Below, piece by piece: positions 3,517 to 17,341 of a DNA stretch of 64,000 nt. The DNA is from Mycobacterium cookii (lineage in GTDB: Bacteria; Actinomycetota; Actinomycetes; Mycobacteriales; Mycobacteriaceae). A program made the position numbers and the translations under genes. Location: positions 3,038,001 through 3,102,000 of the forward strand of contig NZ_AP022569.1 in NCBI RefSeq assembly GCF_010727945.1, written 5' to 3'. Each line of letters begins with the position of its first letter. Positions within the stretch are counted from its first letter, which is position 1. The notes under the pieces are model-generated. The model saw only the letters and a program-made list of their open reading frames with translations, was not told where the DNA came from and made no database searches.

Positions 3517-4653
3517 CTACGGCTCCGACCAAGGTTTGAACGGGTTGACCGCGAATTGGATCACCCGGTACGGAGCCCGCGCCTGCGGGTCACTGTTGTG
3601 CCACTGGCTGACGAACACCCGCAGCTCGTCCAGCGTCGAACCCGGCGAAATGTAGCCGCCGTACGGCTGGGCCAGTCGGTTGTCGTGCGGCGACGGCAGG
3701 CTTTCGGCGGGTTCGGGCCACTCGTCGTGCTGGACGACCGTGGTGACCGGTGCGCTGCCCAGCGAGGTCGGGTCGTCAGCCACCCGCACTTCCATGTTGC
3801 CGGTGCTGGAATTGAAATACGACAACACCGACTTGCCATCGATCTGGGTGAAGCTGATCTCACCAATCGTGTCGCCCCACAACGGTGTTGGCGTCCTACC
3901 CCAGCCCCCGCCGGGTCCCGACGCCCAGCCTTGCCACCGGGAGCGGTCGCCGAAATTGTGCGGCGCGACCCGGTAGAGCACCGCCGGCTGGCTGCGGTCG
4001 AAGTTGTCGGCGACGATGTAAACCCAGCCGGTCTGCGACTCGGGTGTCGGTATCGGGTCGTAGTAGCCGCTGACCTGCGACTGCTGCCCGTCCGCGTAAC
4101 CGCCGTCGCGAACCGACCCCGGGACGGTCTGCCAAAGACCATGTGTCGGTTCGGCTTTGACCAGACGTGAGCTCTGTGGCACCAGGTCTTTGGTGGTGGT
4201 CACCAGCAAGTAGTTCTGCCGGTTGATCTGTACGACACCGGCCGGTAGCTGCGAATCGCCCGGCGGCGTCGGGTCGGCCAGCAGCGGCTCGGTGACGCCG
4301 GTGACCCCGGTATATTTCACGCCGTCCGGGTCGTCGACCGACGACGTGTCGACCCGTAACGCGATCGGCGAATAGTAGCCACCGAAGCCGACGCCCTGGC
4401 CAGCAAAGCTGTCGCCGCAGACCTGTTCGACCTGGGTCGGAAATTCGATGAACACGCACAGGTCGGTGGCCCCGATGCCGTATTCGCCGGTGGGTGTGCC
4501 GGTTCCGGCGGTCGGGCCGATCCGGATCACCTCGCCGGGCGCCAGCGGTGGCAGCACCGGCTGAGGCATCGGCGCGGGCGGGTCGGCGTGCGCGAACGAG
4601 ACCCCTTGGCAGACAAGCAGGACGGCGATCAGCGACGATCGCGCCAGGTTCAC
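3517..4653 (-). CDS. Exported DUF4185 protein (Rv3707c-like)
   Basis: About 378 residues from a GTG at 4653. An N-terminal signal peptide (LARSSLIAVLLVCQGVSFAHA) is followed by a Pro-rich stretch and a DUF4185 domain. That fold is probably a beta-propeller, with repeated Trp/Gly/Tyr-rich strands such as GFGGYYSPIAL, GWVYIVADNFDR and PYGGYISPGSTLDELRVFVSQW. No catalytic function is established for the family. The frame extends upstream into asd, but the GTG lies just past the asd stop (4661-4663) and gives a clean signal peptide. It is the last gene of the ask-asd operon. A second DUF4185 gene lies at 13171-14361. Confidence 0.85.
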   Translation of the reverse strand: MNLARSSLIAVLLVCQGVSFAHADPPAPMPQPVLPPLAPGEVIRIGPTAGTGTPTGEYGIGATDLCVFIEFPTQVEQVCGDSFAGQGVGFGGYYSPIALRVDTSSVDDPDGVKYTGVTGVTEPLLADPTPPGDSQLPAGVVQINRQNYLLVTTTKDLVPQSSRLVKAEPTHGLWQTVPGSVRDGGYADGQQSQVSGYYDPIPTPESQTGWVYIVADNFDRSQPAVLYRVAPHNFGDRSRWQGWASGPGGGWGRTPTPLWGDTIGEISFTQIDGKSVLSYFNSSTGNMEVRVADDPTSLGSAPVTTVVQHDEWPEPAESLPSPHDNRLAQPYGGYISPGSTLDELRVFVSQWHNSDPQARAPYRVIQFAVNPFKPWSEP

Positions 4654-4660
4654 CCGCGAG

Positions 4661-6963
<2,303 letters not shown>

Positions 6964-7049
6964 TGTTGCTCTTTCAGGTCAGGAGGGTACTGGTGAGTAA
7001 TAGTCGACAAACAGAATACTTGCGCCGGCGTCGGGCGTTCACCGCCGTC

Positions 7050-9686
7050 TTAGTCGCCGCGGCCCCGGCGGATGACCAGCGCCAGTCCCTCGCGATCGGT
7101 GACGTCGAGCTTGATGCAGGCCCGGTAGATGTGGCCTTCCACGGTGCGGGTCGAGACGACCAGCCGGTCCGCGATGTCACGGTTGCTCAGCCCCTGCGAG
7201 ACGAAGCTGGCGATCTCACGCTCGCGGGGGCTCAACGGCAACGGCTGCGACGCCATCTCCAGGGCCGGTGTGTGCACACCGCCGCAGGCCGCCGCGAGCC
7301 GGTCCGCGGTGGCGGCGCAGTCTTGGGCATGGCGGCGATCGTCGGCCGCCCGGAACAACGCCGCTGCTTGGGCGGCCGCGTCCGCGGCCGACAGCAGCGC
7401 CCCAATCGATTCGAATTGCTCTGCAGCCGAACACAATTCATCGGCATCAGACGAAAGCAGGGCGGCCCCGTAGGTGGCCAGCGGCGCGGCCAGCCGCCCG
7501 CCGATGGTGTGCGCGATGTCGACCAGACGCTGCAGCGAGGTGAGGTCGCCGAATCGGGCCGCGTCATGCAGGGCGACCATCTCCACGGCCCGTTGGCCCG
7601 AATCCCGGGCCAGGTCGGCTGCTTCCAGGGCACGCGATATCGCCCCGCTGACGTGGCCTTCTGCGGCGGCGAGCCACGCCTCGACGAGGCGGAACTGCGG
7701 TTCGAACACCGCCACGTGGCGGCCGACCTTGCCGCGCAGTTCGTTGACCGTCTTCGCTGCGGCGTCGACATTGCCCAGTACGCAATGGGATTGCGCCAGC
7801 AGCATCGCGGCCGGGAAGCTCCACGACGCCGCGGACTCCGCCGCCAACGCCGCGACGGTTTCCTCCATCCGGGGCGCGGCCAGATCGAATCGGCCCCGGG
7901 CGACTTCCACGGCGCCCAACAGGATGTTGGACATGCCCCAGGCGAGGTACTGACCGGGCGAGGAGATCTGGCCGATGTGCCCGGAGCGTGCCTCGGCGTC
8001 GTCGAACTCCCCGGCCAGTGTCAACGCGCGAATCTCGCCGAACATCGTGGGGTAGCGCAGCAGGCTGTCGAGCTCGTTCTCGATCTGGCGCCCGCGTTCG
8101 ACGATCGCTGCCGCATCGTCCACCCGGCCGGCCAGCGCCGCCGCCAGCGTCCCGCCGAACACCGCCCAGATGAGCGCCCACGGTGATGCCGTCGCGTCGT
8201 CCAGCACTCGCTGCGACGCGACCGCGGCCTCGTCGAGCAGGTTCTCAAAGGCCCGGGTCGCCGACGCGACCCCCTCGACGACAAGCCGCAGCGCCGGGTG
8301 GCTGACTCGTCGCTGCAGCAGGTGCAGCACTTCGTCAGCCCGTGCGGCGTCGCCCATCGACCAGTGCAGGTTCGCGATTCGCGCCATGCCCCAGCGCACC
8401 AGCTCCAGCTCGTTCATGCTGTCCGGGTCGAACGCGTTCAGGACGTCTTCCGCCTCGGCCGCCCGGCCCTGCCACAGCAGTGACCGCGCCAGCAGTTCGC
8501 TGGCCACCAGCCCGCCGCCGCGCTCCACCGAGGCGCGCGCGAGGCGTTCACCCAGGGTGATGTTCGTCAGTGCGATGGCGTCGTGCGCGGCGGCGGCGAA
8601 CAGCTCGCTGTCGGCGGTCGAGTCGCTGTCCAGGGCCAATTCCGCCAGCCGAATGCGTTGTGCCGGTGCGTGAACCGGCTGCTGATGCATCGCGGAGAAG
8701 AGTTCGCCCTTGAGGCGACGGGTGGCAGCGCGGCCGAGTCCACGCCGAATCACTTCGCCGTAGAGGGGATGGGTGAATCGGACGTCCAGTGTGTGCGAGT
8801 CCTCCACGACGCGGATCAAGCCGCGCCGCTCGACGCCCTCGACGGTGTCGGGCCCGACCAGGGTCGACAGGGTGTCCAGGGACAGCGGTTCCGCGAAGGC
8901 CAGTAGCTGCAGGGTGTGCGCCTCGTCCTCGGGCAGCTGCTCGATACGCGCGTCGAGCAGCGAGGCGAGCTCGGACGTCACCGCGGTGCGCCCGCGCAGC
9001 TGCCAGACACCGCGCACCTGCCGAAGGGTGCCCGCTTCCAGCGCACCCTCGACGAGATGCCGGATGTACAGTGCGTTGCCGCACGATGCCGTCCACATCA
9101 AATCGCCGGACAGGCCCTCCAGCCGACCGCCGAGCGCCTCCTCGACGAGGGCCAGGCACTGCGTCTTGCTGAACGGTGTCAGCCTCAGCCGTTTGAGGTA
9201 CCCGTCCTTCCACAACGATGTGATCGCATCGGGAACGGTTTCCCCGTCGCGGACCGCCGCCACGATTCGCACGGATCCTTCCAGCGCCAGCTGGTGCACC
9301 AGCGTCGCCGAGAGGTGGTCGAGCAGGTGCGCGTCGTCGACGCCGATGATCGAATGCTCGGCGCTGCGGATTGTTTCGCGCGCAGCGGCCAACCCGGCGA
9401 TCGGATCCCGCGACGCCGCCGGGCCGACCAGATGCGCGAAGACGCCCAACGGAATCGACCGGGCCGACTCGGTCCCCGCCACCCAGTGCACCGGCGTCGG
9501 CAGCGACTGGGTGACCGCCCGCGCCAAGGTGGTCTTGCCCACCCCGGCGTCCCCGAACAGCACGATTCCGGCGAAGTCCTGCGTCCCGGCCAGAGCCGAG
9601 CGAATAGTGCCGAATTCGTCTTCCCGGCGCACGATCGGCCAGGACCGAGTGTCCACGACCAGCGATGATACCGCTATTCCGGACAT
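7050..9686 (-). CDS. LAL-type LuxR family ATPase regulator
   Basis: A large regulator of about 880-900 residues. Near the N-terminus is an AAA/STAND-type ATPase with Walker A GDAGVGKTTLAR and Walker B IIGVDDAHLL. A long helical-repeat middle region follows. The C-terminal LuxR helix-turn-helix is LSPREREIASFVSQGLSNRD and onward. Members bind DNA as NTP-dependent activators. The start is unclear: ATG 9686 lies in the loop of a perfect inverted repeat (9670-9704), GTG 9656 lies just downstream of it, and upstream in-frame codons also exist. It lies downstream of the C1 peptidase gene on the same strand and is the obvious candidate regulator of the neighbouring peptidase block. Confidence 0.88.
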   Translation of the reverse strand: MSGIAVSSLVVDTRSWPIVRREDEFGTIRSALAGTQDFAGIVLFGDAGVGKTTLARAVTQSLPTPVHWVAGTESARSIPLGVFAHLVGPAASRDPIAGLAAARETIRSAEHSIIGVDDAHLLDHLSATLVHQLALEGSVRIVAAVRDGETVPDAITSLWKDGYLKRLRLTPFSKTQCLALVEEALGGRLEGLSGDLMWTASCGNALYIRHLVEGALEAGTLRQVRGVWQLRGRTAVTSELASLLDARIEQLPEDEAHTLQLLAFAEPLSLDTLSTLVGPDTVEGVERRGLIRVVEDSHTLDVRFTHPLYGEVIRRGLGRAATRRLKGELFSAMHQQPVHAPAQRIRLAELALDSDSTADSELFAAAAHDAIALTNITLGERLARASVERGGGLVASELLARSLLWQGRAAEAEDVLNAFDPDSMNELELVRWGMARIANLHWSMGDAARADEVLHLLQRRVSHPALRLVVEGVASATRAFENLLDEAAVASQRVLDDATASPWALIWAVFGGTLAAALAGRVDDAAAIVERGRQIENELDSLLRYPTMFGEIRALTLAGEFDDAEARSGHIGQISSPGQYLAWGMSNILLGAVEVARGRFDLAAPRMEETVAALAAESAASWSFPAAMLLAQSHCVLGNVDAAAKTVNELRGKVGRHVAVFEPQFRLVEAWLAAAEGHVSGAISRALEAADLARDSGQRAVEMVALHDAARFGDLTSLQRLVDIAHTIGGRLAAPLATYGAALLSSDADELCSAAEQFESIGALLSAADAAAQAAALFRAADDRRHAQDCAATADRLAAACGGVHTPALEMASQPLPLSPREREIASFVSQGLSNRDIADRLVVSTRTVEGHIYRACIKLDVTDREGLALVIRRGRGD

Positions 9687-9704
9687 CGAGTCCGGAATAG
9701 CGGT
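9670..9704. promoter_or_regulatory. Perfect 14-bp inverted repeat between C1 peptidase and luxR-type gene
   Basis: Arms 9670-9683 (ACCGCTATTCCGGA) and 9691-9704 are exact reverse complements around a 7-base loop. The repeat lies 35 bases past the stop of the C1 peptidase gene and overlaps the possible starts of the LuxR-type gene. There is no T-run on either side. It could be a terminator of the I-shaped type seen in mycobacteria, an operator, or a hairpin masking the translation start. Confidence 0.6.
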
Positions 9705-9738
9705 CCTCGTCACAAGCGGTGCGCCGCAGGGTCGCCGG

Positions 9739-10578
9739 TCACGACGACACCGCCTGGATCGCCCAGAAGTCACTGGCCAAGTGCGCGTGGCTGATCGGTG
9801 AGCTGTCGGCGCTCGCCTTGGACCCGGTCAGGTACTGGTAGGGCATGTAGAAGTAGCCGTGGTCACCCCACGACTGGCCCCACGAGTTGCGAACGATGAC
9901 GTGGCGCTCGGGATCCGAATAGCCGACGGCAAGGACTGCGTGGCCGCCGACAACGGACTCACCCGCCTTGGGCAGCGGCATCACGCCGGTGCGCGCGACG
10001 GCCTGGGATTCGAAACTCTCGTACACGGTGAAACCGAACACGACCGACAGATTCGACGCGATCGCGTCTTTGAGGTCGCCCAGCGATTGGATCGACTCGT
10101 ATTGAACCGCTTTATCTTTCGTCGCGGCGACGTAGCAGCGCCGCGGCGGCTTCACCGCGAACATCCCGGTGTCGTAGGGCCACAGGGTCTCCGGGCACAC
10201 CCCTTCGGTGTTCACGACCTTGATGCCGTCCCTGATGACCGCGCCCGAGTCGCTGGACACCGTGCCTTCCAGCGCACGTTCGTTGTAGTAGACGAACAAC
10301 CGAGACGGCACGAAATCGGGCAACCCCTGACGGTCCCGCTCGTACTCCATCGCGCCGGCGATCGCGTTACCGGTGCATGAGCCGAGCTGGCCCTGGTCGT
10401 AGACCGGCGGCATCGACGGCCGCAGGTCGTGCTCGGGGGGCAGGCTCGTGAGCCTCGGCGCATACATCCTGTCCCGGGCGTCCGGCAGCTGCGGCCGCCA
10501 GCCATAGCCGCGCACATGGCTCCAATCCTGCTCCTGCTCAACAGTTTTGATGGGACGAGCCTCTCGTAGAACGGTCAT
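9739..10578 (-). CDS. Papain-like C1 family cysteine peptidase
   Basis: A 279-residue protein with the full papain active-site set. The oxyanion Gln and catalytic Cys are in DQGQLGSCTGNA (about Gln62 and Cys68). The catalytic His is in GGHAVLAVGY (about His213), and the Asn in VRNSWGQSWGDHGYFYMPY (about Asn231). No signal peptide or long pro-domain is visible, so it is probably cytosolic or exported by another route. The ATG at 10578 has a strong AGGAGG six bases upstream. Substrate unknown. It is divergent from the G1 peptidase gene across 334 bp that carry a shared sequence element. Confidence 0.88.
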   Translation of the reverse strand: MTVLREARPIKTVEQEQDWSHVRGYGWRPQLPDARDRMYAPRLTSLPPEHDLRPSMPPVYDQGQLGSCTGNAIAGAMEYERDRQGLPDFVPSRLFVYYNERALEGTVSSDSGAVIRDGIKVVNTEGVCPETLWPYDTGMFAVKPPRRCYVAATKDKAVQYESIQSLGDLKDAIASNLSVVFGFTVYESFESQAVARTGVMPLPKAGESVVGGHAVLAVGYSDPERHVIVRNSWGQSWGDHGYFYMPYQYLTGSKASADSSPISHAHLASDFWAIQAVSS

Positions 10579-10634
10579 TGCATCCTCCTATTGTTGTGAT
10601 GATCCATTGACCGTAAAAACATCGGCTACCCAGC

Positions 10635-10655
10635 GGCTTGCGTACCCGACTACCC
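10635..10655 (-). promoter_or_regulatory. 21-bp element, copy C, upstream of C1 peptidase gene
   Basis: Reads GGGTAG, four variable bases, GTACGC, then AAGCC on the minus strand, ending 57 bases before the ATG at 10578. It matches 13 of the 17 fixed positions of the copies at 10733 and 11959. It faces the C1 peptidase gene just as the other copies face theirs. Confidence 0.45.
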
Positions 10656-10732
10656 GACTTCTGGGCCGGTCGGGGACATCGCCACGAGTAGTACGCGGTC
10701 GACAGGTACCGGCGTTTTCCCGGCCCAACAAC

Positions 10733-10753
10733 GAGTAGGGCGCTACGCGTGCC
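10733..10753 (+). promoter_or_regulatory. 21-bp element, copy A, upstream of G1 peptidase gene
   Basis: Reads GAGTAG-N4-CTACGC-GTGCC, with a palindromic core GTAG-N4-CTAC. It ends 160 bases before the ATG at 10913. All 17 fixed positions are identical to copy B at 11959-11979, while the four spacer bases differ, as expected for a protein-binding site. Confidence 0.55.
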
Positions 10754-10912
10754 TTCGTTCGCCGGCCCGAGCAGCGTTGTCCGCACCAAGACGGCCGATG
10801 AGTTAAGGCGACGAAGGAAAGCACCTGGCCACCGGACGCGGCGGTCCGCCAACCCGGCGGTCGTCGACCAAAGATGCTGTAGCAGAACACGAAACAGGAT
10901 AGGAGTATCGAA

Positions 10913-11836
10913 ATGGCAACCATCAATCTGGACAAGAAGGTCAAGATCAAGACCTTCAGCCCTGCGCCCGAACTCGACCCGCTTACCGCCTCGGCGAAAA
11001 GCCTGGCGCAAGCCGGACTACCGCCCCGACCCACCGACCCGCATCTACTGGAGCGCTACACGCGTTTCTTCACACAGACGAAAGACAAGTTCCACTACAT
11101 CGAGCCCACATTCCGGGTGGATCCGACCAAGTCGACACACCCCAACAGGGCGGCAAAGAACGGCGCCGGCACCGAAACGTCCGGCAATTGGTCGGGCGGC
11201 ATCGTGTATGCGCCGAGTGGCCAGTCGTTCAAATGGATCGAGGGCGACTGGGTGGTGCCCAACGTGTACCCCACGGCGCAGAACGAATGGCAATACTGCG
11301 TGAACTGGATCGGCATCGACGGCGATGGTTCGGGCGACGTATGTCAGGCCGGCATGGCCTGCGCCGTCTACCAGAGCGGCAGTTCGATCACGCGAACCAT
11401 TTATCCGTGGCACGAGTGGTACCCGTCGAGCTGGGTTGAGATCACGAATCTGCCGATCAACCCGGGCGATCTGGTCTCCGTGCTGATCTGCACCGCCCAG
11501 GGCGCCGGATCCACCACCGCGACGGTCTATTTCGGCAACCACAGTAGTGGCGCCTCGACGTCCTACCAGATCACGGCTCCGTCGGGGACGACCCTCGCGG
11601 GGAACAGCGCGGAGTGGGTTGTCGAGACGCCCACGGTGAACGGCTCGGTCACTTCGATGCCGGACTACGGCGAGGTCTTCTTCTCGGTCTGCGAAGCAAG
11701 CCTGACGAATGGCTCGTTGGTCAACGGTGGCACTGGCAACAACATCAACCTGGTACAGAACGGCAAGACGCTGTCAACGGGTGCACTGATAACGCCCACG
11801 GTCGTCGAATGCCAATACGCGGGCTCGGCTCCCTGA
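10913..11836 (+). CDS. G1 (eqolisin-like) glutamic peptidase
   Basis: A 307-residue protein. An N-terminal segment of about 85 residues, possibly a pro-region, precedes a beta-sandwich domain of the scytalidoglutamic peptidase (A4/G1) family. It shows NWSGGIV, WIGIDGDGSGDVCQAG with the family's catalytic Gln (about Gln145), PWHEWYPSSW, and AEWVVETP carrying the catalytic Glu. No signal peptide is visible, although known family members are secreted acid peptidases. AGGAG lies upstream of the ATG at 10913. A strong hairpin follows the gene. Assigned by motifs; activity is untested. Confidence 0.82.
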   Translation: MATINLDKKVKIKTFSPAPELDPLTASAKSLAQAGLPPRPTDPHLLERYTRFFTQTKDKFHYIEPTFRVDPTKSTHPNRAAKNGAGTETSGNWSGGIVYAPSGQSFKWIEGDWVVPNVYPTAQNEWQYCVNWIGIDGDGSGDVCQAGMACAVYQSGSSITRTIYPWHEWYPSSWVEITNLPINPGDLVSVLICTAQGAGSTTATVYFGNHSSGASTSYQITAPSGTTLAGNSAEWVVETPTVNGSVTSMPDYGEVFFSVCEASLTNGSLVNGGTGNNINLVQNGKTLSTGALITPTVVECQYAGSAP

Positions 11837-11854
11837 CCCGCCGACCCTCAAGGA

Positions 11855-11881
11855 TCACGCCGCCGAAACCCGGCGGCGTGA
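11855..11881 (+). terminator. Hairpin after the G1 peptidase gene
   Basis: Perfect 11-bp stem (TCACGCCGCCG at 11855-11865 pairing with 11871-11881) with a five-base loop, 19 bases past the stop codon. No T-run follows, as is common in mycobacteria. It probably ends the G1 peptidase transcript before the next promoter. Confidence 0.65.
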
Positions 11882-11958
11882 CTCCTGGCCCGGGCACCGC
11901 ACGCACCCCTCACGCCAGCGCCGCTACTTGCCGAACCCCAAATGCCGGAGCCGAGTTT

Positions 11959-11979
11959 GAGTAGCGCTCTACGCGTGCC
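11959..11979 (+). promoter_or_regulatory. 21-bp element, copy B, upstream of phosphorylase-like gene
   Basis: GAGTAG-N4-CTACGC-GTGCC, identical to copy A outside the spacer, ending 89 bases before the ATG at 12068. It lies between the terminator of the G1 peptidase gene and the next operon, where a promoter is needed. Confidence 0.55.
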
Positions 11980-12067
11980 CCGGCGCACATCGAACGGGGA
12001 CGCTCAGCCTCGGACAGCACAACGTAAACCCCGACTTCGGGACACCGACCTAGAAAGAAGTACCGAC

Positions 12068-13141
12068 ATGTCGAGCGCCACACACCACAACACGGCCGCT
12101 GCAGACGGCCCACCCGGAAGCGCCACCTTGGGCAGAACGTTCCCGGTCAACGACTACGCACTGGAGCGGATCATCTACCGCGCGCCACATGAGGCGCTGG
12201 CACCGATTCCGTGGCCAGACGGACTCGCTCCGCACGGCGTCGCCTACGACCGCCCAGCCGATCAGCCGTTGCCCCTTGCGGATGTCGTCGTCGTGACGTG
12301 GACGGTGGCCGAGGGTCAGGCCTTGGCCGACGTGCTGACGCCTGGGATTCCGAGCATGTCCTGGAAGCCCTACGCTCACCACTGGAGTGCTTATGAACCG
12401 CAGTTGACCGGTCGCTCGCCGGCTCGGCAGGCCGGCTGCCTGGGCTACGTCGCGACGACCAAGATCGGCAACGTCAATGTGTTGTTGATCAAGTCGGAGC
12501 TACACCTTGCCACCGACGGGATTTCGGCGCCGATCGTGGCGTTCTGGCAGCAGATCGTCGCCGAGGCACGGCCACACCTGGTTATCACCACCGGAACCGC
12601 CGGCGGCATCGGCGCCGCCACCCAGCTCGGCGATGTCTTCGTCGTCACCAATGCCAAGTTCAACTGCGCCAGGGATTTCAAATCCAAGCCGTGGGCTCAG
12701 CAGCTCTTCACTGGAGCCGCAATCCACGCCGACGGCCATGCGTCGAGCTTCGGTGCGCTGACGGCACCGAACGCCGGGCACTTGCGGCCGGTGGCCTCCC
12801 GTCCCCCGGTGCTGAGCTTCGGCGCAGCGGCCGGCGGCGTGGAAACCGTCGACTATTTCGGCTTCGCCGACACCGCCGACTCCTTCGGCATCGTGCGCAA
12901 CTACCCCGACGCCCGGACCGAGGAGATGGACGACGCCACCCTGCCGCTCGCCCTGTCGCAGCTGCCCAGCCCGCCACTCTGGTGCTCGATCCGCAACGCC
13001 AGCGACCCGCAGGTGTCGTCGGACCTCGGCGACCTCGATGCCCAACGGCGCTGGGCCAACCAGATTTACAAGCGATACGGCTACTGGACCTCGATCGGGT
13101 CGGCGATCGGCACCTGGGCGGTCATCGCCAACGTAAGCTGA
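12068..13141 (+). CDS. Nucleoside phosphorylase-like protein
   Basis: About 357 residues from the ATG at 12068, which has AGAAAGAAG upstream. The central part resembles the PNP/UDP phosphorylase fold: a strand then glycine-rich loop (HLVITTGTAGGIGAATQLGD), followed by VFVVTNAKF and a later EEMDDATLPLAL region where these enzymes bind the nucleoside. An N-terminal extension of about 70 residues is not typical. Substrate unknown. PNP-like domains also occur as effectors or ligand sensors in bacterial conflict systems, so an enzyme role in salvage should not be assumed. The next gene starts 29 bases later, so they form an operon. Confidence 0.6.
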   Translation: MSSATHHNTAAADGPPGSATLGRTFPVNDYALERIIYRAPHEALAPIPWPDGLAPHGVAYDRPADQPLPLADVVVVTWTVAEGQALADVLTPGIPSMSWKPYAHHWSAYEPQLTGRSPARQAGCLGYVATTKIGNVNVLLIKSELHLATDGISAPIVAFWQQIVAEARPHLVITTGTAGGIGAATQLGDVFVVTNAKFNCARDFKSKPWAQQLFTGAAIHADGHASSFGALTAPNAGHLRPVASRPPVLSFGAAAGGVETVDYFGFADTADSFGIVRNYPDARTEEMDDATLPLALSQLPSPPLWCSIRNASDPQVSSDLGDLDAQRRWANQIYKRYGYWTSIGSAIGTWAVIANVS

Positions 13142-13170
13142 GCCGGAACGACGAGTCTGCGAGGCACCCC

Positions 13171-14361
13171 ATGAGCCAGGTACGACAGCGGCGCGAAAAG
13201 ACCTCCACCGCAAAGAAATCCGTCGCGGCCAAGAAGACCACGAAACGCGCGGCGGCGATACCGGCAGCGCCCGTCCAGGGCTATCTCGGTGACATCACCG
13301 GCCCGGGCATCACCGACTCGTGGGGGGTCACCGGCACCGACCTCGGCGTCAGCGCCGTCGCACCGAACGGCAAGCTGGTGTCGGTGTTCGGAGACACCTT
13401 CTCCGGCGACAGCGTCGGTCAGGGTGACTGGCGCGCCCCGGTCGCGCTGATCGGGACCGGGGACGCGAATACCAAGATCCAGTACGCGGCCGCGGCCGGC
13501 GAAGACGCCGATTATGCGCAGCAGTTGTGGGCCTATGTCCATGACAGCCCACCCTGGAACCGCGGTGGGATCAGCACCGTCATTCCCTCCGACCTGTTGG
13601 TCATCGGGCAGACGATGTACCTGCACGCCATCGTCAACCGCGGCTTCGGCAATGTCATCTGGACCGGCATCTGGGCCTCGACCGACAACGGCGCCACGTG
13701 GCAGGAGATGGGCGCCCGGGCCACCTTCCCCGCGTCGCTGCACAACGGTTACGCGCAGCTGTGGTCGTGGGACTACAACCCCGACGACGGTTGGGTCTAC
13801 GTCGTCTCCACCGGGTTTCAGCGCGACAAGGGCATCATTCTTCGACGGGTGCGCCCCGACGACATCGGTGACATGTCGAAGTACTCGGGCTGGGGTTGGG
13901 CCGACAACCAGTGGGCTTGGGACAACGCGCCGACCCCGATCACGCCGCCCGCCGAGACCTGGGGCGAGCTGACCCTGCGCCGATTGGACTGCGGCACATG
14001 GATATTGGGCGGCTTCCTGTCGTCGCAGTACGCGCTGAGTTACCGCACGATCGACAGCCCGACGGCCAACCTCTACGAGGCTGAGCTGCAGACCCCGTTG
14101 GTCGGGTCGACCTGGGACGCCCAAGACCTGGCGAACAACCAGGTTGCGCAGCTCTACGGCGGCTATGTGCTGCCCGGGTCGACGCTGGATGCTCCCGGCG
14201 GTGTCGGGCTGATCGTGTCGCAGTGGGATACCGCAACCGGCTGGCCGTACCGGGCGATGCAGTTCAAGGTGACGCTGACCGACACGACCAAGGTCGCAGC
14301 GGTCCAGCGCCCCGCTGCCCGCGCCCGTCCACGCAAACGCCCGCAGCGACGGGGCGTCTGA
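13171..14361 (+). CDS. DUF4185 protein with cationic tails
   Basis: 396 residues from the ATG at 13171, 29 bases after the previous stop. The N-terminus is Lys-rich (KTSTAKKSVAAKKTTKRAA) and the C-terminus Arg/Pro-rich (PAARARPRKRPQRRGV). Between them is a DUF4185 domain with repeated beta strands and aromatic-glycine motifs: LVSVFGDTFSGDS, GWVYVVSTGFQR, YGGYVLPGSTLDAPGGVGLI. Unlike the copy at 3517-4653 it has no signal peptide. The basic tails suggest contact with nucleic acid or another acidic polymer, which is an inference. No enzymatic role is known. Confidence 0.78.
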   Translation: MSQVRQRREKTSTAKKSVAAKKTTKRAAAIPAAPVQGYLGDITGPGITDSWGVTGTDLGVSAVAPNGKLVSVFGDTFSGDSVGQGDWRAPVALIGTGDANTKIQYAAAAGEDADYAQQLWAYVHDSPPWNRGGISTVIPSDLLVIGQTMYLHAIVNRGFGNVIWTGIWASTDNGATWQEMGARATFPASLHNGYAQLWSWDYNPDDGWVYVVSTGFQRDKGIILRRVRPDDIGDMSKYSGWGWADNQWAWDNAPTPITPPAETWGELTLRRLDCGTWILGGFLSSQYALSYRTIDSPTANLYEAELQTPLVGSTWDAQDLANNQVAQLYGGYVLPGSTLDAPGGVGLIVSQWDTATGWPYRAMQFKVTLTDTTKVAAVQRPAARARPRKRPQRRGV

Positions 14362-14407
14362 TATCCAATAGTGGCCCGCGGATGCGCTCTGCAGAGAGGT
14401 GGTCACG

Positions 14408-14797
14408 ATGGCCAGCAGCAATGAGGTGTTGTGGGGCGACGAGCCCGACGAGCACGATTACCCGGCGGCGGCCGACTATCTCGCCCTGCTCGCCACCGCC
14501 GAGCAGATCAGCGAGATCGTGGCGGCGCTCAAGCAAGCCCCAATCGTGCGCAAGAAGGCCAAGGACCTGCTGCGGGCGTCGTGCCTGCAGCTGTTGCCGG
14601 TAGACAACCCGCACGTGAGCCGAGACCTGAAGAAGATCAAGAAGGGTCAGCGCCTGTCGCCCATCCTGGCCGTCCGCGGCGACCTCAACACCGGGGTGGC
14701 GATGCAGATCGCCGACGGCTACCACCGGGTCTGCGCGAGCTACTGGACCGACGAGAACACCGACATACCCGTGCGGATCGTCCCGGCCACCAAGTAG
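14408..14797 (+). CDS. Small ParB/sulfiredoxin-like protein
   Basis: 129 residues from the ATG at 14408, with GAGAGG upstream. The N-terminal half is helical and acidic. The C-terminal half has KKIKKGQRLSPILAV followed by MQIADGYHRVCASYW, which matches the DGxHR loop of the ParB/Srx nucleotide-binding fold. It lacks the DNA-binding domain of chromosomal ParB and is too short to be one. Function unknown. It is probably the last gene of the phosphorylase-DUF4185 unit (46-bp gap) and is followed by a hairpin. Confidence 0.65.
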   Translation: MASSNEVLWGDEPDEHDYPAAADYLALLATAEQISEIVAALKQAPIVRKKAKDLLRASCLQLLPVDNPHVSRDLKKIKKGQRLSPILAVRGDLNTGVAMQIADGYHRVCASYWTDENTDIPVRIVPATK

Positions 14798-14804
14798 CGA
14801 GCAG

Positions 14805-14821
14805 GGGTTTTGGGCAAACCC
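14805..14821 (+). terminator. Short hairpin after the ParB-like gene
   Basis: GGGTTT at 14805-14810 pairs with AAACCC at 14816-14821 around a five-base loop, directly after the stop codon and just before the leuA promoter. A modest 6-bp stem; it is a plausible end of the accessory block. Confidence 0.4.
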
Positions 14822-14831
14822 GCGGGCGGGG

Positions 14832-14837
14832 TACAGT
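14832..14837 (+). promoter_or_regulatory. -10 element of the leuA leader transcript
   Basis: TACAGT lies seven bases before a GTG (14845) that begins a leucine-rich leader peptide. This spacing puts the transcription start at or next to the GTG, so the leader would be translated from a leaderless transcript, a frequent arrangement in mycobacteria. Confidence 0.5.
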
Positions 14838-14844
14838 ACACAGC

Positions 14845-14886
14845 GTGCAGCGGGTGCTCCTTCTCGGACGCCGCGACAGGGCCTGA
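14845..14886 (+). CDS. leuL: leuA leader peptide
   Basis: A 13-codon reading frame GTG to TGA, translating to MQRVLLLGRRDRA, with three consecutive leucine codons (CTC CTT CTC, 14857-14865). It sits upstream of leuA and just before a stem-loop whose first arm overlaps its last codons. Leucine shortage should stall the ribosome on the Leu codons and change the RNA folding. Leader-peptide control of leuA is documented in several actinobacteria. The call rests on the codon run plus the hairpin. Confidence 0.7.
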   Translation: MQRVLLLGRRDRA

Positions 14887-14909
14887 TCCAGACCGGCTTC
14901 CTGTCGCGG
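14871..14909 (+). promoter_or_regulatory. Attenuator stem of leuA
   Basis: CCGCGACAGG (14871-14880) is an exact inverted repeat of 14900-14909, around a 19-base loop. The first arm overlaps the end of the leader peptide, so a ribosome stalled on the Leu codons would block it. Further pairing with the region just before the leuA start (14930-14965) probably decides leuA expression. Confidence 0.6.
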
Positions 14910-14955
14910 GTGTTCGCGATGCGCCGGTCTAAGCCTCTAATGGGCGCCCTTCTGA

Positions 14956-16803
<1,848 letters not shown>

Positions 16804-16807
16804 GGCG

Positions 16808-17341
16808 TCAGGCCTCGACCTTGGCCAGCACCATGCCAGCCAGGGTCTGGGCCTGAGCGCAGTTGTCGGCGCTGACGATCAGATAGATCCAGCCCTTGAG
16901 CACGTCGAGGGTTGCTGGCGGCGCGACGAAGCAGAAGGCCCGATCGCCCAGGCCGGAGACGTCCTGAACCTTGCCGGCGGTCTGCTTGTTGGCGAGGAAT
17001 CCCTTGGACTGCGCGTTGAGGCACTGCCCGTCGGCGGGCTTGCCCTCGACGCAGTACAGGTTGTTCCAGTACAGCTTGAAGGTGACGTCGTTGCCCGCGG
17101 TCGGTATCGCGGCGCACTGCGCTTCGCTGGGCGATTGGCTGCCCTCCGGCGCGGGAAACGCCCGGCCTACCACGCGACTGATTTCGGATCCGCTGAGCAG
17201 ACCGCAGAAGTTCTCCGGGACGTGCACGCCCGCTGTTTTCGATGCCGTACCGACGTTGCCGGGCGAACCGCAGGCCGCCAACGCGGCAACCACCGCTGCC
17301 AGCGCAGCCCACGTCCGCCGACGGCTTCGTGTGATCGGCAT
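16808..17341 (-). CDS. Putative lipoprotein, DUF3558-like
   Basis: 177 residues from an ATG at 17341. The signal sequence has twin arginines (RSRRRTWAALAAVVAAL) and ends in a lipobox LAAC, so it should be lipid-anchored on the outer face of the membrane. The mature part has cysteines in pairs (FCGLLSG, QCAAIP, YCVEG, QCLNA, FCFV, NCAQ), suggesting disulfides. The pattern resembles the DUF3558 group of mycobacterial lipoproteins, but I hold this loosely. A longer frame upstream runs antisense to the dehalogenase gene and is not used. Function unknown. Confidence 0.7.
   Translation of the reverse strand: MPITRSRRRTWAALAAVVAALAACGSPGNVGTASKTAGVHVPENFCGLLSGSEISRVVGRAFPAPEGSQSPSEAQCAAIPTAGNDVTFKLYWNNLYCVEGKPADGQCLNAQSKGFLANKQTAGKVQDVSGLGDRAFCFVAPPATLDVLKGWIYLIVSADNCAQAQTLAGMVLAKVEA

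Follow-up and report, generated by a model that had tools for sequence, protein, structure and literature searches.

The subject of this work is a block of accessory genes inserted between ask and leuA in Mycobacterium cookii, which we analyzed within a window of 64,000 nucleotides (contig NZ_AP022569.1, positions 3,038,001 to 3,102,000; all coordinates below refer to this window). The source genome consists of one contig of 5.32 Mb. In Mycobacterium tuberculosis ask and leuA are presumably adjacent. An earlier note on this DNA, made from the sequence alone, had described six consecutive genes between the two, and all of these open reading frames (ORFs) were found again. The gap and its borders comprise the following features:

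5698-6963: ask, one border of the gap holding the six ORFs
about 7020-14393, no strand: inserted DNA
7050-9773, minus strand: LAL regulator
9739-10578, minus strand: papain-like peptidase of family C1
10913-11836, plus strand: G1 glutamic peptidase (Pfam Peptidase_A4)
12068-13141, plus strand: PNP-like protein
13171-14361, plus strand: DUF4185 (GH183) protein, phage-lysin type
14399-14797, plus strand: ParB/Srx-like gene (132 amino acids), beyond the inserted DNA, a resident gene of the gap
14968-16803: leuA, the other border

The extent of the inserted DNA was derived by BLAST of the flanks against the empty site of a relative (genome G030, locus L101). There, only about 60 bases separate the stretches matching positions 5651-7019 (91%) and 14394-16882 (85%), and the locus consists of ask, the ParB/Srx-like gene and leuA. 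Five genes lie within the inserted DNA: those of the LAL regulator and the C1 peptidase on the minus strand and those of the G1 peptidase, the PNP-like protein and the DUF4185 protein on the plus strand. The ParB/Srx-like gene was rejected as a member of the unit, because it sits in the gap of L101 that is devoid of the block. It was detected in 61 of the 148 genomes of a genus sample (all family counts in this sample include the source genome), and since it is that widespread and lies outside the insertion, we regard it as a resident gene. Its product shows a conserved DGYHR motif by eye and gave no match in Pfam, NCBIfam or PADLOC up to E 1. Among the named relatives detected, Mycobacterium sp. 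1245111.1 (locus L010) is the closest, its PNP-like protein being 86% identical. Gene calls in this and all other fetched loci derive from a crude ORF picker, so that start codons are uncertain.

The assignment of the block proteins was checked against Pfam cut-offs and active-site residues. For the LAL regulator, AAA_16 (32.9 vs. 32.6 bits) and the C-terminal LuxR/GerE domain (48.2 vs. 23.5 bits) exceed their cut-offs, in agreement with the STAND-type ATPase with a LuxR domain that had been proposed. Its gene overlaps the end of the C1 gene on the same strand by 35 bases, so that the two look like one operon. The C1 peptidase belongs to the papain family C1A (PF00112, 57.6 bits with a cut-off of 20.7) and carries the triad C68, H213 and N231 as well as Q62. 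Its closest solved relative is 3ois (E 1.3e-62), which we take to be xylellain from Xylella and whose active-site layout is the same. In the G1 peptidase (PF01828, 125 vs. 22.3 bits) Q145 and E234, presumably the catalytic residues, lie inside the stretch aligned to aspergillopepsin II. Both peptidases thus carry the active-site motifs ascribed to them, and they are encoded divergently around a common promoter region. The absence of a visible signal peptide from both was likewise confirmed by a crude hydropathy test of the first 60 residues, and the PNP-like and DUF4185 proteins have no signal-like N-terminus by the same test.

The PNP-like protein stays just under the cut-off of PF01048 (24.3 vs. 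25.1 bits) and reaches no curated family cut-off. According to a structure model, it has a nucleosidase fold, that of the PNP/UDP phosphorylase superfamily, and the nucleoside-phosphorylase fold suggested earlier is thereby borne out. It is not an MTA/SAH nucleosidase by the NCBIfam equivalog model (20.6 vs. 73.8 bits). The Glu of the EME motif binds ribose. Compared with MTA/SAH nucleosidases and futalosine hydrolase, the Glu following the Met of this motif is replaced in all 36 aligned rows (Gly in 29, Asp in six, Ser in one), and the PNP-like protein has an extra N-terminal part and insertions.

The DUF4185 protein was assigned with a large margin (PF13810, 228 bits with a cut-off of 39.5) and is predicted, by family and motif, to be a GH183 endo-D-arabinanase. 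D57 and D75 were equated with the catalytic Asp residues of PMC10115798 by motif, not by alignment to the sequence treated there. According to this publication, the domain of phage GMA6 was shown to be an endo-D-arabinanase, GH183 is present in lysis cassettes of some actinophages, and a role of host GH183 enzymes in modifying or degrading the cell wall is assumed. The block protein matched 35 phage records, 30 of which were listed. Among these, 22 Gordonia phage records (53-58% identity over 83-85% of the length) are all labelled lysin A, lysin or endolysin, Rhodococcus phage Finch (47.5%) bears one of these labels as well, and the remaining listed matches are labelled hydrolase, gp244 or hypothetical. 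For one of the phage matches, ChisanaKitsune gp56, PMC9671378 names a GH43 domain, which probably denotes the same stretch. Among the PHROG families, the block protein matched the endolysin family 28089 (E 2.8e-133). The domain is shared with the C-terminus of Gordonia phage lysin A (e.g., DalanDe gp55, GMA6); in the five annotated phages inspected, a large lysin of about 920-1090 amino acids ends in GH183, and the next gene encodes a holin or membrane protein, whereas the block copy stands alone. In Rhodococcus phage Tonitrus, genes for an amidase, a peptidase and a DUF4185 protein are consecutive.

The window contains a second gene of this Pfam family:

3517-4689, minus strand: host DUF4185 gene in the AraH2 position beside asd, not part of the unit

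Like AraH2 (Rv3707c), the host GH183 enzyme, this copy shares its family with the block protein, but it has a signal-like N-terminus, while the block copy has none. The possibility that the block gene is a recent copy of this neighbor was rejected, as the two proteins are only about 34% identical and fall on separate branches of the tree. In this tree, which contained AraH2-type but no AraH1-type proteins, the block copies, stand-alone mycobacterial relatives and the best phage lysins group together, apart from the AraH2-type proteins (support 100/100). On these comparisons, the assignment of the block protein to the phage-lysin type is well supported. Among the matches listed, which came from 22 genomes of the genus, 10 genomes carry a stand-alone lysin-type GH183 gene (59-66%) at a different locus. 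In the five mycobacteria whose contexts were read (L190-L194) such a gene lies at one chromosomal locus beside a peptide-type transporter and, in four of the five, directly after a small gene for a secreted-looking protein, both judged by eye.

Relatives of the PNP-like protein were found in viral scans, at first in five contigs and then in eight distinct ones (L103, L104, L105, L106, L107, L241, L243, L245). PHROG profiles were tried on one to three proteins per contig, and the remaining viral contigs were judged by eye. They identified a minor tail protein, an endolysin and an integrase in L103, a tape measure protein in L104 and a major head protein in L106. A papain-like gene directly adjoins the PNP-like gene in three of the eight contigs (L105, L106, L243) and lies 1.7 kb away in L104; a weak papain-like match of 87 residues is located about 2 kb away in L245. 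The papain-like protein of L105 is 38% identical to the C1 peptidase of the window. Those of L106 and L243 are 75% alike, that of L104 is 47% identical to that of L106, and both L104 and L106 proteins went undetected by Pfam at E 0.05, although the L106 protein and the window C1 match one common PHROG peptidase family. The partner in L104 and L106 is of another lineage than the window C1, and the PNP-like gene therefore seems to have swapped its partner.

In a tree of 41 PNP-like rows with midpoint root, the five rows from mycobacteria are nested within L103 and L105, then L104, then L106 together with L024. The forks are supported by 99/90 for L103, 100/99 for L105 and 93/79 and 91/77 for the two deeper ones. 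In L024 a neighboring gene matches phage families, one of the matches being a weak one to a holin. The PNP-like protein of L107 groups with copies from Bradyrhizobium. Carriage of the PNP-like gene by plasmids was rejected, because only one of 72,556 plasmid records had a match, at 32%. That the PNP-like gene of the mycobacteria descends from phages is fairly well supported. The phage kinship and the lysin-type arabinanase, neither of which had been considered in the earlier note, are the strongest new evidence on the nature of the block.

Relatives of the C1 peptidase were present at 30 viral loci and in 30 annotated phage records (best 51%, most below 35%), and in two annotated phages they lie beside or within endolysin genes. 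Further papain-like genes were noticed in mycobacteria. The source genome encodes a second papain-like protein (L208:2136-2873), which shows weak similarity to both the block C1 and the phage proteins, has no Pfam match at E 0.05 and is preceded by a GTAG-N4-CTAC palindrome. In L099 and L100 a distant C1 gene stands beside a gene for a chagasin-type-looking inhibitor, and L100 also carries a protealysin-like M4 peptidase gene with an emfourin-like gene (all by eye).

We then compared eight mycobacterial leuA-ask loci with the block (the window, L010-L013, L048, L096 and L097). The C1 gene is present in all eight and the DUF4185 gene in seven (missing in L012), and these seven hold both between leuA and ask. 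The PNP-like gene is intact in five loci, each time together with C1, a remnant in L048 and absent from L096 and L097, whose genomes also gave no match to it anywhere in the search of the genus sample. The LAL gene occurs in two of the eight loci and the G1 gene in the window only. Within the genus sample, C1 was found in 18 of the 148 genomes, three times strongly (the two besides the source genome at 82-85%), the PNP-like protein in five (the source genome, two at 38-41% and two weak) and G1 in two. In the phylum, G1 was found in 10 of 296 genomes including the source genome, the others at 26-38%. Homologs of the block genes do recur together, so that the neighborhood comparison proposed earlier turned out in favor of a recurring unit. 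What recurs is a core of C1, DUF4185 and PNP-like genes; a unit of all six genes is not supported, given the ParB/Srx-like gene outside the insertion and the sporadic G1 and LAL genes.

Pairwise dN/dS values were 0.11-0.25 for C1 (0.04 for one close pair), 0.14-0.32 for the PNP-like gene, 0.14-0.27 for DUF4185 and 0.13 for the single pair of LAL; the DUF4185 rows of L012 (0.73-0.92) were excluded, as they had matched an AraH2-type gene. Judged by these ratios (0.04-0.32 over true pairs), all four genes are under purifying selection. Such selection, the membership of C1, G1 and DUF4185 in hydrolase families and the role in wall modification or degradation ascribed to host GH183 enzymes in PMC10115798 would also suit a turnover or scavenging set, in which an intracellular peptidase, a nucleosidase and an arabinanase recycle material in stress or stationary phase and the phage link reflects gene exchange only. 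An enzyme for wall arabinan without an export signal and the phage late-region neighbors of PNP-like genes argue against this explanation, which we consider quite unlikely.

The promoter regions of the block contain an operator-like palindrome:

10642-10653, no strand: looser GTAC-N4-CTAC site, nearer to C1, with a similar site in L010
10735-10746, no strand: GTAG-N4-CTAC palindrome in the C1/G1 divergent promoter region, within a 21-base repeat (10733-10753)
11961-11972, no strand: second GTAG-N4-CTAC, roughly 100 bases upstream of the PNP-like gene start, with the 21-base repeat at 11959-11979

The 21-base repeat thus occurs before G1 and before the PNP-like gene. The strict palindrome marks divergent promoters in six of the eight block loci, and in the stretches read, including the whole window, it was found only in promoter regions of the block; L012 and L048 lack it and show similar, mismatched stretches by eye. 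The source genome holds 31 GTAG-N4-CTAC sites, fewer than the 70 of a reversed control pattern, so that the core is not enriched genome-wide. Of the 29 palindromes outside the block, 27 were judged by rough gene calls (13 inside and 14 outside ORFs), and we claim no regulon for them. That the local LAL regulator alone reads the palindrome was rejected, as LAL is present in two loci and the strict palindrome in six. Elsewhere (L206:86-9787), two perfect GTAGCGCGCTAC palindromes surround a gene cluster. It encodes a further LAL regulator as well as what look by eye like an ABC transporter and a P450-like protein.

The independent variation of the G1, LAL and ParB/Srx-like genes and the broken or missing PNP-like gene in three loci could indicate that unrelated accessory genes gathered at one permissive insertion site. 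This seems very improbable to us, since C1 and DUF4185 stay together in seven loci, the palindrome between the divergent genes is kept in six, and the PNP-like gene pairs with papain-like genes of two lineages in phages and with C1 in a member of the Acidobacteriaceae (L044).

A genome scan for the PNP-like protein yielded 55 loci, which were de-replicated to 27, selected by hand to reduce the share of Bradyrhizobium and Myxococcus. By Pfam, the neighboring peptidases belong to S53 (in Bradyrhizobium), S8, M4, Nal1/S64-like, astacin-like and M6 families. Within 1.5 kb of the PNP-like gene, 13 of 77 genes encode peptidases (in 12 of the 27 loci), compared with none of 189 genes beyond 4 kb; the Fisher p of 5e-8 is inflated because the models were seeded from near-set proteins. 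With unseeded Pfam models, S8, M4, S53, C1 and M13 appeared among the 25 families listed of 104 for the 77 near genes, and no peptidase among the 25 listed of 109 for 77 random far genes. None of the 13 near peptidases reaches the hydropathy mark in the first 60 residues; in the M13 protein of L039, a lipoprotein-like segment was noticed by eye shortly after residue 50, and this protein may be a common exported enzyme. The peptidase-bearing loci are spread over Actinomycetota, Rokuibacteriota, Pseudomonadota, Acidobacteriota and Planctomycetota, with the M13 case in Myxococcota. The situation in which homologs almost never occur together, named earlier as a refutation, was therefore not encountered. 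In L052, L056 and L060 an S8 gene is located further along the same gene row. No published description of the pairing was found in a literature search by titles and abstract openings.

Several of these neighborhoods hold additional genes. A protein family directly follows the PNP-like gene in L037, L042, L046, L047, L051, L052, L056, L059 and L060; it occurs in a form of 434 amino acids without Pfam match and in one of 954 amino acids with an amidohydrolase domain. L046 and L047 combine the PNP-like gene with an S8 peptidase and a follower protein of 940 amino acids, and L047 carries a tyrosinase and a phage-sheath-like gene nearby, the latter having suggested cargo of a contractile injection system as a further possibility. 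In L059 (6015-8153) a hemocyanin-type gene directly precedes the genes of an M4 peptidase and the PNP-like protein.

PNP-family ATP nucleosidases are immune effectors. The variety of peptidase families beside PNP-like genes, together with the near-far difference given above, could be explained by an antiviral or conflict module with an exchangeable peptidase, in which the PNP-like protein would be a toxic or signal-making nucleosidase activated by peptidase cleavage and LAL or another sensor would start the response. PMC7159879 describes a set of conflict systems in which peptidases and nucleoside phosphorylase domains occur, as they do in the block, and in which the latter domains are thought to make second messengers. 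In contrast to these systems, the block proteins gave no Pfam match to vWA or MoxR, and PADLOC found no convincing match to a named anti-phage system among the six proteins: LAL matched only over helix-turn-helix or P-loop stretches, the PNP-like protein had a single weak PDC-M60C match (E 0.011), and the other four had none. A constant sensor is lacking, as LAL is present in two of the eight loci, no peptidase was recognized within 1.5 kb in 15 of the 27 loci, and the Bradyrhizobium copies reside in a stable neighborhood that is not island-like. We judge a conflict module of this kind to be unlikely.

The best explanation, to which we give an even chance, is that late or lysis genes of phages make up most of the block, which the host would have domesticated as a cassette and placed under its own control. 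It is based on the gene content, the insertion, the phage kinship of the PNP-like and DUF4185 genes, the purifying selection and the conservation of the palindrome; its role, a protein reading the palindrome, the substrate of the PNP-like protein and a phage origin of C1 are what we infer. A PNP-like gene of phage ancestry, a lysin-type GH183 arabinanase and a papain-like peptidase of a type often encountered in phages would have arrived between ask and leuA in the ancestor of one mycobacterial group and would then have been kept by selection. Control would be exerted through the operator-like palindrome in the promoter region between the divergent genes, and in the source species and one other the LAL gene would have been added to the C1 operon. 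The enzymes would carry no export signals and be produced in the cytoplasm, which would cut off the arabinanase from its substrate as long as the cell is intact. Once expression is switched on or the membrane fails, e.g., upon phage attack, the peptidase might digest proteins, the PNP-like protein might split a nucleoside or nucleotide and the arabinanase might open the wall from inside. The outcome could be a controlled or altruistic breakdown of the cell or a weapon released on lysis.

A number of observations weigh against the domesticated cassette. In the PNP-like tree, the outermost rows of the clade (G148, G176) are bacterial, L104 and L106 form long branches, and L024 is a metagenome-assembled genome of an actinomycete; moreover, 50,697 annotated phage records contained no match to the PNP-like protein, and its gene is broken or absent in three of eight loci in which C1 remains. 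The C1 tree mixes phage and bacterial rows without resolution, with an unsettled bootstrap (correlation 0.893), and thus gives no support to a phage origin of C1. The DUF4185 tree leaves the direction of transfer unfixed, and the lysin-type GH183 genes elsewhere in 10 of 22 genomes imply that the block copy may have come from a mycobacterium. An origin of G1 from phages was rejected, as no relative was found in the viral contigs, and for LAL no phage link was sought. No phage was seen with all three genes (C1, PNP-like, DUF4185). A crude membrane-ORF scan recognized no holin near the block; the sole membrane-type ORF (10588-11034, minus strand) has a weak coding signal and is not conserved in seven relatives.

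A wider interpretation, which we offer tentatively and with clearly less confidence than an even chance, takes the mycobacterial block as one instance of an unnamed two-enzyme module. Such a module would consist of a nucleosidase-fold enzyme and an exchangeable cytoplasmic peptidase (C1, S8, S53, M4, M6, M12 or Nal1-like) and would circulate in phages and in no fewer than five bacterial phyla, serving as a weapon for late-phase cell breakdown or in conflicts. Mycobacteria would have domesticated one copy of it with a phage-lysin-type arabinanase under a dedicated operator. If this is true, an enzyme family without a curated model would be tied to phage late genes and to many unrelated peptidase families, which would hint at a common mechanism. 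The arabinanase part builds on enzymology already published. Some mycobacteria would then hold a phage-type wall-cutting enzyme intracellularly under control, which would bear on their lysis and on their meeting with phages.

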